Source: a virus. From it: a stretch of DNA of 23,655 nucleotides. How positions within the stretch are numbered: position 1 is the stretch's first letter; every line of letters begins with the position of its first letter. Made by a program: the position numbers and the translations under genes. The notes under the pieces were generated by a model. The model ran no database searches and was not told the DNA's origin. It saw only the letters and a program-made list of their open reading frames with translations. Positions 2,747 to 12,283 of this stretch are shown here, piece after piece. The stretch covers positions 1 to 23,655 of IMG/VR virus record IMGVR_UViG_3300020215_000140, one strand, 5' to 3'.

Positions 2747-2819
2747 GCAAATCGTCGGGTCGATTGTTTTTGCGGTGATGACGGTGTTGGGGTTACTGAC
2801 ATGGAAATACCCGAGTTAG
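2730..2819 (+). CDS. Possible small membrane protein, 29 aa
   Basis: ATG 2730, inside the end of the preceding frame, opens a 29-residue peptide. One hydrophobic segment (IVGSIVFAVMTVLGLLTW, about 8-25) is flanked by Lys before and Lys-Tyr-Pro after, which is a typical single-pass helix. The ribosome site is weak (GGG). The stop overlaps the start of the zinc-ribbon gene by 19 bp. Small one-helix proteins are common in phage early or lysis regions, but nothing here decides the role. Confidence 0.42.
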   Translation: MTMPYKQIVGSIVFAVMTVLGLLTWKYPS

Positions 2820-2959
2820 AGAAATGTTTAGAGTGTGAAGGGGCGCTTGTGTTATGCCAGAACAAACAATGTGAGCATGACGACTTGTACTATTACTGCG
2901 CGGCATGCGGATTGCATTTTCACTATATCCCGAGTTTGCGAGCCTGGGCCGGGATCTGA
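2801..2959 (+). CDS. Small zinc-ribbon protein, 52 aa
   Basis: Starts at ATG 2801 with a TTGGGG stretch 8 nt upstream. Two CxxC knuckles, Cys9/Cys12 (KCLEC) and Cys33/Cys36 (YCAACG), are separated by 20 residues, a regular spacing for a one-zinc ribbon. An acidic HDD turn and a Tyr-Tyr-Tyr strand lie between them. The C-terminus is HFHYIPSLRAW. Such mini-ribbons usually bind nucleic acid or a protein partner; which one is unknown. It is the third member of an overlapping small-gene cluster, and the next gene starts 11 nt after its stop. Confidence 0.65.
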   Translation: MEIPELEKCLECEGALVLCQNKQCEHDDLYYYCAACGLHFHYIPSLRAWAGI

Positions 2960-2970
2960 GGAGATTCAGC

Positions 2971-3165
2971 GTGACCTTGACATGCGTTTACTGCGACGAA
3001 GAAATTCCGGAAGGCTGCGGGATGTTTGGCCGGGGCCATGCGGCCTATTGCGATAGCCATTGTCTGAATATGGGGAAATGCGCGCGCAAGTTCGGCGTCT
3101 TTAAACGACCGGCGCCGCAACGCCGATACGTCCTCGGAAAACGACGCCGGCCTGAATCATTCTAG
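2971..3165 (+). CDS. Small cysteine-rich basic protein, 64 aa
   Basis: I choose GTG 2971 because GAGGAG lies 6-7 nt upstream; the frame remains open further upstream but overlaps the previous gene. Cysteines at 5, 8, 16, 27, 31 and 37 (CVYC, EGCG, YCDSHC, KC) suggest a compact zinc-binding fold. The last 25 residues are rich in Arg and Lys (PQRRYVLGKRRR), suited to nucleic-acid binding. The N-terminal CxxC with 'EEIPEG' resembles short zinc-finger proteins found in many phages. The stop codon (TAG at 3163-3165) lies at the first base of repeat copy B, so this gene ends the cluster and the late-region leader starts immediately. Confidence 0.65.
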   Translation: MTLTCVYCDEEIPEGCGMFGRGHAAYCDSHCLNMGKCARKFGVFKRPAPQRRYVLGKRRRPESF

Positions 3166-3200
3166 AACCCCCCCTTGTAAATCGCGGAAAGTCCTGTAGA
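3165..3200 (+). promoter_or_regulatory. Repeated 36-bp element, copy B (promoter-like)
   Basis: AGAACCCCCCCT, 10 variable bases, then GGAAAGTCCTGTAGA, matching copy A at 1704-1739. A weak sigma70-like reading is TTGTAA (3175-3180), 16 bp, TAGAGT (3197-3202), the same spacing as copy A. It lies directly before the hairpin leader and the terminase genes, so it is a good candidate for the late promoter. The C-rich block and the GGAAAGTC block are better conserved than the -10, hinting at a protein-binding site. Confidence 0.5.
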
Positions 3201-3208
3201 GTTATATC

Positions 3209-3278
3209 AAGCGCTTTAAGTGCGGCAGACAGATTTGCCGGACTTTGAGCGCTATTTTTTAGCCCACTTAAAGCGCTT
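3209..3278 (+). promoter_or_regulatory. Attenuator-like leader with two exclusive hairpins
   Basis: AAGCGCTTTAAGTG (3209-3222) can pair perfectly over 14 bp with CACTTAAAGCGCTT (3265-3278). Its first 12 bases from 3210 can instead pair with ACTTTGAGCGCT (3242-3253, 10 Watson-Crick pairs), and TTTTTT follows at 3255-3260, which is an intrinsic-terminator layout. Both forms share the inner hairpin CGGCA/TGCCG (3223-3227, 3236-3240). The long form sequesters the terminator's T-run. An alternative is three copies of a protein site (ACTTnnAGCGCT, first inverted), for example a pac site for the small terminase. Confidence 0.6.
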
Positions 3279-3328
3279 TGGGCCGGGCGTGGAGTGAACC
3301 TTAGCGGGATCGTCCACGTACCGCTTTG

Positions 3329-3925
3329 ATGGATCGCCTCGAAGAAGCGAAAGCCCTTGCCGAAGAATTCTCGACTGCGGCCCGAAAATTGGTGCCAAGT
3401 CCAGACGGTAAAACCATTTTCGCGCCCCTCCTAGCCGATAAGCAGCTGCTCGATTTGCGGTTTAAAGAACTCCAAATCCAACGGGCCGTGAAAGCCGCGC
3501 TGACCGCCGCGCTCCAATCCAAAGTGTTTATCGATCCCGAAGAGGCGTTGACTCAAGCCTGTCTGGAAACGGGCATTGACCGCGAATGGGCGCGGAACTA
3601 TTTTGCCAGTCCTCGCTACAAGAAATGGTTTGTCGATCGGATGGAAGAAATTTCCGCGAACTTGGGGCTATCGATTGAATACCTTGCGCTTAAACATAAG
3701 CAGAACATCGAAGGCGACATTAAGCTGACCAGCGGGCAGCTCGAAAGCCTAAAAGAGTTGGGTGACCGCTTCTGGCCGAAAATTTCACGGATCGAACATC
3801 AGGTCGAAACAAAACAATCGACAACGCTTGACGATCTGCCGGATTTTCAGCGCCGCGTGGACGAACTGGAAGAAAAATTGCGCTCGTCGATCCCCACGGA
3901 GGGACTCTTTGACCCCGGAACCTGA
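3329..3925 (+). CDS. terS: Terminase small subunit (predicted)
   Basis: Predicted DNA-recognition subunit of the packaging motor, 198 aa from ATG 3329. The assignment rests on position directly before the large terminase and on an all-helical layout. An N-terminal helix (about 1-15) is followed by a helix-turn-helix-like segment, 'IDPEEALTQACLETGIDREWARNYFASPRYKKWF' in outline (about 70-103). Next come long helices (about 105-165) ending in a likely oligomerisation region, and an acidic coiled tail (about 170-190). The Shine-Dalgarno is poor. An 11-codon frame starting GTG 3294 stops at TGA 3327-3329, sharing a base with this ATG, so translation may be coupled to it. The C-terminus overlaps the large subunit by 17 bp. 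Confidence 0.65.
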   Translation: MDRLEEAKALAEEFSTAARKLVPSPDGKTIFAPLLADKQLLDLRFKELQIQRAVKAALTAALQSKVFIDPEEALTQACLETGIDREWARNYFASPRYKKWFVDRMEEISANLGLSIEYLALKHKQNIEGDIKLTSGQLESLKELGDRFWPKISRIEHQVETKQSTTLDDLPDFQRRVDELEEKLRSSIPTEGLFDPGT

Positions 3926-5411
3926 ACGATCCGACGTGTCGCATATCAAACGGGCCCTTGCCCGCGCCTTGAAGGAAAAAGAGCGTGACCGCCAGGAAAA
4001 CAAGATCCGTTATTATCTGCCTGCTTGTCTGGCTCATTTTCCTAAGCGCTGTCCAAGCGATTGCCGTAGCTCTAAGCACCTGGCTTTCCATCAGTCTATG
4101 GCGCGGAATCGCTTTGTCTTTGGCGGAAATTCTAGCGGCAAGACCGTGATGGGACTGACGGAAATGGTGATTCGGATGAGTTTTCATAAGCATCCCTATA
4201 ACGGGCTCGACCTGCCACACCCGGCATTTCATCGCGTCGAATTTGAATCGTTCCGTAACTTGGAGTCCTATTATTTACCGCTGTTTAAAGAGTGGGTGCC
4301 GAAATCCCTGCTCATCAACGGGTCCTGGAGCGATTCATATAACGTCAAATACAACATTCTCCGCCTCAAAAATAACGATTCGCTCGATTATTTGTCCTAT
4401 GACATGGAAACGGGGAAGTTTGAATCCTCCACAATTCATGACATCTGGGCCGACGAGAAAATGCCGGAAGACGTTTACGATGCCAATCTCTCCCGTCTCC
4501 TGCGAACAGATGGCTATCTCTGGAATACCGTTACGCCCATTAACGGCATGCCCTGGATTATGACCCGCGTGTGGGGGGTGAACAACGAAAATACACAGTC
4601 TTGGGTGATTGATATGGACGAAAACCCGTATATCTCGAAAGCGGCCAAAGATCGGATCTTAAGCGAAATGTCGCCGGACGAACGCGAAGCCCGGAAATCC
4701 GGCCGGCCGATGCAATTTCAAGGGCTCGTCTACCCCCATGTGAACGAAGGCGTTCACATGTCGGATCGAAAACCGGAACCCTACTGGCCGCTCTATTTCT
4801 GCTTGGACGCGCACCCGCGGAAACCCGCCTTTGGGCTCTGGATCGCCGTGGCGCCGGACGAGTCGGTCTATTGCATCGACGAAATGGAATTGCGCGGCAC
4901 ACCCAAAGAGTTGGCCGAACATATCTTTCGCAAAGAGTATGACATCCGCCGCTGGATCGGCGGCGGACCGTTCCGGGGCGTGCAGAAACGGTGGATCGAT
5001 CTCTCGGCTATCGTGCAGGATTCGGATATTCAAATGAATTATGACTTGCTCGCGGAGTTTGCCAAATTGGGACTCCCGTTTAGTCAGGCGAACCGTTCCA
5101 GCGTCGGGTATACCATCGTTAAAAATTATCTCCAATACGACAAAGAAAAGCCCATCGGGGCGTTTAACCGGCCGATGCTCTATTTCTGCCGTAACCGCGT
5201 GCCGAAAACGTGGTTTTCCATGACGCACATCATTTACGACGAGTATAGATCCCGTACCGGGCGCGACCCGAAAGAAAAAGTCAAAGATTGGGGAAAAGAC
5301 CCCGCCGATTGCGTGCGCTATCTCTTGATCGAAAAGCCACGCTACCAGCTGCAAATGTCGGCGGTCAGCTACGGCGAACCGGGATTGGAGCGGTGCTATG
5401 TCCAGCGATAG
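3909..5411 (+). CDS. terL: Terminase large subunit (packaging ATPase and nuclease)
   Basis: Motor of DNA packaging, with an ATPase that translocates DNA and a nuclease that cuts the concatemer. TTG 3909 is preferred because GGAGG ends 5-6 nt upstream; GTG 3936 is an alternative. From TTG the protein has 500 aa, normal for the family. Walker A is GGNSSGKT (72-79). Walker B is IHDIWADE (176-183), with Asp-Glu as metal/catalytic pair. The coupling motif is VTPINGMPW (208-216). The RNase H-like nuclease begins near 290 with Asp300 in FCLDAHPR, and a late acidic site lies in KDPADCVRYL (463-472). The last 14 bp overlap the next gene. No truncation seen. Confidence 0.92.
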   Translation: MTPEPERSDVSHIKRALARALKEKERDRQENKIRYYLPACLAHFPKRCPSDCRSSKHLAFHQSMARNRFVFGGNSSGKTVMGLTEMVIRMSFHKHPYNGLDLPHPAFHRVEFESFRNLESYYLPLFKEWVPKSLLINGSWSDSYNVKYNILRLKNNDSLDYLSYDMETGKFESSTIHDIWADEKMPEDVYDANLSRLLRTDGYLWNTVTPINGMPWIMTRVWGVNNENTQSWVIDMDENPYISKAAKDRILSEMSPDEREARKSGRPMQFQGLVYPHVNEGVHMSDRKPEPYWPLYFCLDAHPRKPAFGLWIAVAPDESVYCIDEMELRGTPKELAEHIFRKEYDIRRWIGGGPFRGVQKRWIDLSAIVQDSDIQMNYDLLAEFAKLGLPFSQANRSSVGYTIVKNYLQYDKEKPIGAFNRPMLYFCRNRVPKTWFSMTHIIYDEYRSRTGRDPKEKVKDWGKDPADCVRYLLIEKPRYQLQMSAVSYGEPGLERCYVQR

Positions 5412-6237
5412 AAACGGCGTTTACATCGATCCAAACGTTGTCAATGACGTGGATCGTAAATTGCGCGCCGATGCCGCCGCCATGAATAGCATCGCCTCGG
5501 CCGCCTGGAACGATGCTTGGGGGATTCAGGAAGGGCCGTTGGGCGCGATTGCCAACCCCGGCCCGCGGATTCCCTGGTATAAACGAAACCGTCCGCAGCC
5601 CGCGCCCCAAGTCGCGCCCCAAGTCGCGCCGGCGCCGGCGGTCACGCCCACGGCCAATATCGGGTTTAGCCTGAACAAGATCTTTCGCGCCGATATCTTT
5701 GCCTGGATCAAGCAAGCCCCTAGCGGTTGGGCGGATGTCATTGTCGCCAATCCAACGATCTGGCGGAATCGGGGCGACGGCTGGTCATGTGAACTCGGGT
5801 TCGAACGCACCCGCTATGAATACGACGGGAAATTGATGAGTCTTGCGGCCGAGTTTGCCCGCGTTGCCCGGCCGACGGCGCATTTGTTCCTGTTAGGGAC
5901 GGGAAACATCCCCAAACTGAAGGAATTCGGCTGGAAAATTTTCGAAGAAATCCATCCGACAGTCGGCGATCATTTTCTCTGGCATTACACCCGCGCCAAG
6001 GCCAAGCCAAGCGTCGAAGTCCCGCCGTGCGATCTTGTTCCCGTCGAAAATTACCCCTATCCGGTGATTCACCCGGAATGTATCGAAGCGCTTTTGGCGT
6101 CCAGCGCCATGGAAGGCGCGACCGTTTTCGCCCCGTTTGCTGGGTCGGGATCGATCTGTCGTCAGGCAAAGGCCATGAGAATGTTCTATGTCGGCGTGGA
6201 AAAGGGCAATTGGGAGGAATTATGGACGGGCCTATAG
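5398..6237 (+). CDS. Degenerate DNA methyltransferase-like protein
   Basis: 279 aa, starting at ATG 5398 with GGAG 8 nt upstream, overlapping the terminase end by 14 bp. Residues about 110-270 follow the permuted (beta-class) amino-methyltransferase order. A motif IV-like ADVIVANPTIW (112-122) comes first and a motif I-like VFAPFAGSGS (243-252) comes last, followed by FYVGVEK (263-269), as in DPFxGSGT...xGIE. Two key positions differ: the catalytic (D/N/S)PPY is NPTIW, and the Asp of DPF is Ala247-less APF. Catalysis is therefore doubtful, though SAM or DNA binding may remain. The N-terminal 90 residues are unrelated, with a Pro/Ala linker (68-83). It may be a modifier lost to activity or a structural or regulatory reuse in packaging. 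Confidence 0.6.
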   Translation: MSSDRNGVYIDPNVVNDVDRKLRADAAAMNSIASAAWNDAWGIQEGPLGAIANPGPRIPWYKRNRPQPAPQVAPQVAPAPAVTPTANIGFSLNKIFRADIFAWIKQAPSGWADVIVANPTIWRNRGDGWSCELGFERTRYEYDGKLMSLAAEFARVARPTAHLFLLGTGNIPKLKEFGWKIFEEIHPTVGDHFLWHYTRAKAKPSVEVPPCDLVPVENYPYPVIHPECIEALLASSAMEGATVFAPFAGSGSICRQAKAMRMFYVGVEKGNWEELWTGL

Positions 6238-10056: not shown

Positions 10057-10106
10057 AAAGCGGGCAAGTTCAGGTGCCTGAACCATCTGAACCGCCCGCT
10101 TTTTTT
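10057..10106 (+). terminator. Intrinsic terminator after the packaging operon
   Basis: AAGCGGGC (10058-10065) pairs with GCCCGCTT (10094-10101), followed by a T-tract through 10106. Inside is a second perfect stem, GTTCAGG/CCTGAAC (10068-10074, 10077-10083). It lies 24 bp after the last stop. No promoter is visible in the 47 bp before the scaffold gene, so readthrough or antitermination may feed the capsid genes. Confidence 0.88.
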
Positions 10107-10153
10107 ATGCCGATTTAATTCGCCGTGGCGGCGTTAAGGCCAAAGGAGAAGTC

Positions 10154-12220: not shown

Positions 12221-12239
12221 TTGGGGGCCTTTCTCACTG

Positions 12240-12265
12240 GGGGGCGGGGAGCAATCCCCGTCCCC
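12240..12265 (+). other. Very stable GC hairpin after the capsid gene
   Basis: An 11-bp stem, 12240-12250 with 12255-12265, including one G-U pair and a GCAA (GNRA-type) tetraloop. It begins 20 bp after the capsid stop. No T-run follows, so it is more likely to stabilise the 3' end of the capsid message or attenuate downstream expression than to terminate transcription on its own. Confidence 0.7.
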
Positions 12266-12283
12266 GGGTGGAAAGGATGAACG

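Follow-up and report, generated by a model that had tools for sequence, protein, structure and literature searches.

A predicted intrinsic terminator behind a duplicated promoter-like element precedes the terminase operon of an integrase-bearing phage

How does transcription reach the terminase and head genes of this phage, and what does the repeat-rich leader in front of them do? The window analysed here is the whole viral record IMGVR_UViG_3300020215_000140 (23,655 bases; classed as linear or unresolved). It starts with an integrase at its left end (16-873), followed by small genes up to 3165, a probable terS, terL, a methyltransferase, the portal, a putative scaffold, the major head protein and then tail genes. 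The leader and its repeats sit in a non-coding gap (3166-3328), which separates the small-gene operon ending at 3165 from the terminase/head operon starting at 3329. On the upstream side, the plus-strand gene 2971-3165 (GTG start, good Shine-Dalgarno) encodes a small cysteine-rich basic protein; it is one of two small cysteine-rich proteins encoded at 2801-3165, for which no family match was found. On the downstream side, the first packaging gene (3329-3925, plus strand) is a probable small terminase (TerS), assigned by position: protein scans gave neither a family match nor a recognised DNA-binding family, and a low-confidence single-sequence model (mean pLDDT 58) is helical. The large terminase gene (TerL, 3909-5411, plus strand) follows, its likeliest start being TTG at 3909 with CGGAGG before it. 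Further to the left, two features were seen in their own right. At 1578-1612, the palindrome ATATCATGACATGATAT overlaps a leftward promoter-like site (TTGATA-18-TATAGT, minus strand 1610-1581) and is operator-like, upstream of the minus-strand genes 1002-1160 and 1198-1365; at 1958-1997, a C/T-rich tract carries a 19-nt near-repeat (ACCCGCTTTCTTTTTCTTT / ACCCTTTTTCTTTTTCTTT), and a 67-aa frame on its minus strand has a run of lysines there.

An earlier note on this DNA had described two mutually exclusive hairpins as an attenuator-like switch, one of them an intrinsic terminator before the terminase operon. This last element is well supported as a prediction: a hairpin at 3210-3253 (-26.5 kcal/mol) ranks first among the 199 hairpin-plus-T-run candidates on both strands of the window, the fold of 3200-3262 reaches -27.5 kcal/mol (z = -5.7), and six Ts follow at 3255-3260. 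The T-tract had been placed directly behind the arm; it is present, but A3254 stands in between. Apart from that one A, the U-tract comes directly after a stable, G+C-rich hairpin in a non-coding gap, and we consider 3210-3260 (plus strand) a predicted intrinsic terminator that would act on rightward transcription ahead of the terminase operon. A simple terminator pattern scan missed it because it demanded uninterrupted stems and loops of 3-8 only. A terminator on the minus strand was rejected, as the outer arm is followed there by GATATAACTC with no T-run.

The two arms of the terminator are copies of a repeat, copy 1 (AAGCGCTTTAAGTG, 3209-3222) forming the 5' arm and copy 2 (ACTTTGAGCGCT, 3242-3253) the 3' arm. 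Between them lies an inner hairpin, CGGCAGA-CAGA-TTTGCCG (3223-3240; 7 bp including one G-U, 4-nt loop), whose pairs were confirmed and which, as had been proposed, occurs in both folds. A third copy (CACTTAAAGCGCTT, 3265-3278) is the perfect complement of copy 1, making a perfect 14-bp inverted repeat with a 42-nt spacer; none of 100 order-2 Markov simulations of the window produced a perfect one of that length within 80 nt. Of the two pairings ascribed to copy 1, the one of 14 bases with copy 3 is thus perfect, whereas the one of 12 bases with copy 2 (3210-3221 with 3242-3253) has 11 standard pairs of 12, one of them G-U, and a U-U mismatch at 3217/3246. The pairings do exclude each other, since both use the arm 3209-3222. 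A second leader hairpin (approximately 3287-3323) ends just before the TerS start codon. Other identities were sought for the leader and set aside: a tRNA/att reading was rejected because the search found no tRNA, a mobile element with terminal repeats because no target-site duplication was seen, and Rfam returned nothing at gathering level, only two chance-level lncRNA matches elsewhere.

A terminator alone would be ordinary. What is new here is a duplicated promoter-like element directly upstream of it. The copy next to the terminator, P2 (3164-3203, plus strand; TTGTAA at 3175-3180, spacer of 16, TAGAGT at 3197-3202), begins at the stop codon of gene 2971-3165. It is 32/40 identical (80%) to P1 (1703-1742, plus strand; TAGACA at 1714-1719, spacer of 16, TAGATT at 1736-1741), a direct repeat 1461 bp apart. 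No other pair of 40-nt stretches in the window matches as well, and 20 simulated sequences reached at most 28 identities, vs 32 here; identity of the surroundings falls to chance on both sides, and no further copies of the 40-nt element were found in the window. The block GGAAAGTC (3186-3193 in P2) is common to both copies and lies between the hexamers, whose register is kept. Judged from these letters, P1 and P2 may both be promoters. P1 matches a sigma-70-like promoter at 9/12, the threshold of our scan; the P2 hexamers are a weak match (8/12), absent from the scan list at that threshold, and a local recheck of 3100-3340 at ≥8/12 gave P2 as the sole site on the plus strand. The predicted -10 ends at 3202 and transcription would begin 7 nt on, which puts the start at about 3209, where the hairpin arm begins.

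The reading that we favour, and hold slightly better than even, is that the terminator at 3210-3260, directly behind P2, gates the late genes through read-through and not through refolding with 3265-3278. It takes promoter activity, termination and any antitermination factor as predictions. Most transcripts from P2 would run from about 3209 to near 3260, an RNA of ~50 nt, and transcription entering from the upstream genes would also mostly stop there. The late genes would then be made from the read-through fraction, whose size would be set by the leakiness of the terminator or by a factor loaded on the polymerase (Q/AlpA-like); late-gene expression would probably need a polymerase that is helped or slips past the stop. 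The geometry of the leader, the stability rank of its hairpin, the order of its arms and the duplication of the promoter-like element are established. In favour of the model, the hairpin that outranks all other T-run candidates is intergenic, the start is predicted right at its arm, P2 repeats P1 with the hexamer register and GGAAAGTC kept, phage 21 Q and AlpA have a comparable layout, and internal terminators recur in this phage group; against it stand the weak P2 hexamers, an element in two copies only, copy 3, and the near absence of such a hairpin before the terminase genes of ten distant phage loci. Copy 3, which the polymerase reaches only beyond the terminator, plays no part in this model; that it matches copy 1 perfectly may point to a site bound by protein in DNA, to a read-through RNA feature or to a recent duplication. 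The window proteins scanned gave no match to an antiterminator of a known family, which is weak evidence because this linear record may not be complete. If P2 and the terminator work in this way, they would add to the known cases in which late genes are controlled by a terminator placed almost at the transcription start, here in a phage that has an integrase and no close cultured relative, and the repeated element would be a specific handle for finding the antiterminator.

A plain terminator at the end of the small-gene operon (last base 3165), with late genes transcribed from an unrecognised promoter in 3261-3329, would fit the leader equally well, save for the missing promoter-like site after it: no site of ≥8/12 was found between the terminator and TerS, and P2 stands alone, upstream. 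We regard this reading as somewhat unlikely. It is helped by the position of a strong terminator, which begins 45 nt beyond the stop codon of gene 2971-3165, and by terminators between modules, which recur in this phage group. The sole close relative found (IMGVR_UViG_3300031772_003160, L002/L006; 68-73% identity in portal and TerL) lacks the leader because its record begins inside TerL, but it can be compared further on. A strong intrinsic terminator in the late operon of the window (10060-10107), before the putative scaffold gene, has its counterpart at 5108-5151 of L006; both lie between the post-portal gene and the putative scaffold gene, and the stem is kept by paired changes (GCGGGC/GCCCGC vs GCGAGC/GCTCGC). 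Both phages also have a strong hairpin directly behind the major head gene; that of L006 (7286-7332) is a full terminator with a T-tract, that of the window (12236-12267) has none. Since terminators are common to both, internal terminators appear to be a habit of this group. A terminator before the terminase as a general layout was rejected, as only one of ten distant phage loci (L003) has a terminator-like hairpin directly before the terminase, and a weak one.

The earlier note had also offered the three repeat copies as binding sites. ACTTNNAGCGCT does occur exactly three times in the window, only in this leader; with at most one mismatch the window has 9 occurrences vs 1.2 expected. We rate it as unlikely that a regulator binds the copies as DNA, or that the small terminase recognises them as a pac/cos element; either could be true alongside the terminator. 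The three exact copies fall within 69 bp, have palindromic cores (AAGCGCTT) and lie directly upstream of the probable small terminase gene, where cos and pac sites are often found; moreover, copy 3 matches copy 1 at 14/14 positions yet cannot act in termination. On the other hand, copies 1 and 2 are already explained as terminator arms, the probable TerS belongs to no recognised DNA-binding family, and there is no related leader in which to compare site conservation. Relatives were sought by protein scans (TerL, TerS, portal), alignments A1 and A2, three DNA patterns in viral contigs and two genome-contig scans, none of which gave a homologous leader; blastn of 2801-5500 against phage records gave no match, and the TerL of L005 is at 25% identity. 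Arms of the form AGCGCTNNAAGT...ACTTNNAGCGCT were found in seven contigs, with no flanking sequence or T-tract common with the window, and these were rejected as relatives, their number being about that expected by chance (a rough estimate).

An undescribed family of processive antitermination is doubtful. Here a factor, perhaps the 2971-3165 protein, would load at GGAAAGTC of P1 and P2 and the polymerase would be carried through a terminator starting at about +1; copy 3 would add a further site of recognition, either in the DNA or in read-through RNA. By analogy, the gene 2971-3165 would occupy the place of Q in lambdoid phages.

The remaining readings give the outer pairing (3209-3222 with 3265-3278) a function in RNA. 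The bare helices of the two pairings are nearly equal (-26.6 and -27.5 kcal/mol). A comparison of the two complete forms, which the earlier note had proposed as a check, favours the terminator form in the full leader (3200-3290), at -37.5 vs -33.1 kcal/mol for the forced outer helix and with a mean pair probability of 0.87 vs 0.09. In folds of successive prefixes, the terminator form is best for RNA ends 3252-3276 and the outer form only for ends 3279-3282; from 3285 on, the terminator hairpin together with a new downstream hairpin is best again. Retro-regulation like that of lambda sib, in which RNase III would cut the outer 14-bp stem of read-through RNA and split the upstream mRNA from the terminase mRNA, is very unlikely: the outer stem can indeed form only in read-through RNA, where it is briefly the best fold, but it gives way from 3285 on and is split from the inner stem by a 24-nt one-sided bulge.

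Attenuation of transcription works only if the competing antiterminator has paired, or is pairing, by the time the terminator arm leaves the polymerase. In this leader, the competing 3' arm lies 5-18 nt past the U-tract, and no antiterminator can form before the terminator is complete. The polymerase is at 3255-3261 before 3265-3278 is synthesised, and therefore the outer pairing cannot prevent termination; the same holds as a general rule for such leaders, where a competing arm after the U-tract cannot be an antiterminator. A leader-peptide attenuator would need a short translated frame that precedes the terminator or overlaps with it. The 11-codon frame at 3294-3329, suggested earlier as one possible means of control, begins only past the terminator and cannot affect it by being translated; a Shine-Dalgarno at a suitable distance from it is lacking too. 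Its TGA overlaps the TerS ATG, which may couple its translation to that of TerS, though without consequence for the terminator. Altogether, although the pairings exclude each other and their bare helices are nearly equal, a true attenuator, in which the outer pairing blocks termination at 3260, is extremely improbable, given an arm made too late and a preference for the terminator form both in the full leader and in every prefix ending at 3252-3270.

Among known systems, the classical attenuators (trp-type, TRAP, riboswitches) resemble this leader in that the 5' arm of the terminator has an alternative partner, but here that partner follows the terminator, an order that does not allow it to control that terminator. 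In lambda tI/sib, it takes read-through RNA for a larger stem to close around the terminator, as would be the case here; unlike in lambda, the outer form is not favoured by energy, the downstream gene is the terminase and int is far away. The lambdoid pR'/tR'/Q systems (lambda, 21) resemble the arrangement proposed here, a promoter and then an intrinsic terminator upstream of the late genes, and the block conserved in P1 and P2 occupies the interval from -35 to -10 in which Q proteins have their binding elements. They differ in that no Q gene was found in the window, the terminator here would span about +1 to +52 whereas lambda tR' lies near +194, no clear sigma-pause sequence (a -10-like element) was found, and the late operon opens with the terminase and not with lysis genes. 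For Q proteins (PMC6606751) and AlpA (PMC7969949), a protein bound between -35 and -10 lets the polymerase pass terminators. In both the phage 21 Q system (PMC6606751) and the AlpA system (PMC7969949), a factor-binding element lies between the hexamers and an intrinsic terminator downstream. The resemblance is a working likeness and not membership, because no Q or AlpA family member, and no AlpA homologue in particular, was found among the window proteins scanned. The sites differ as well: those of 21Q are direct repeats of TGAGCA (PMC6606751), not seen in P2, and the AlpA motif GGGACGN5GGTA (PMC7969949) differs from the shared block GGAAAGTC. The likeness to the AlpA promoters of Pseudomonas aeruginosa (PMC7969949) lies in the proposed arrangement, with two promoters that have a common element between -35 and -10, and terminators directly upstream of the target gene.
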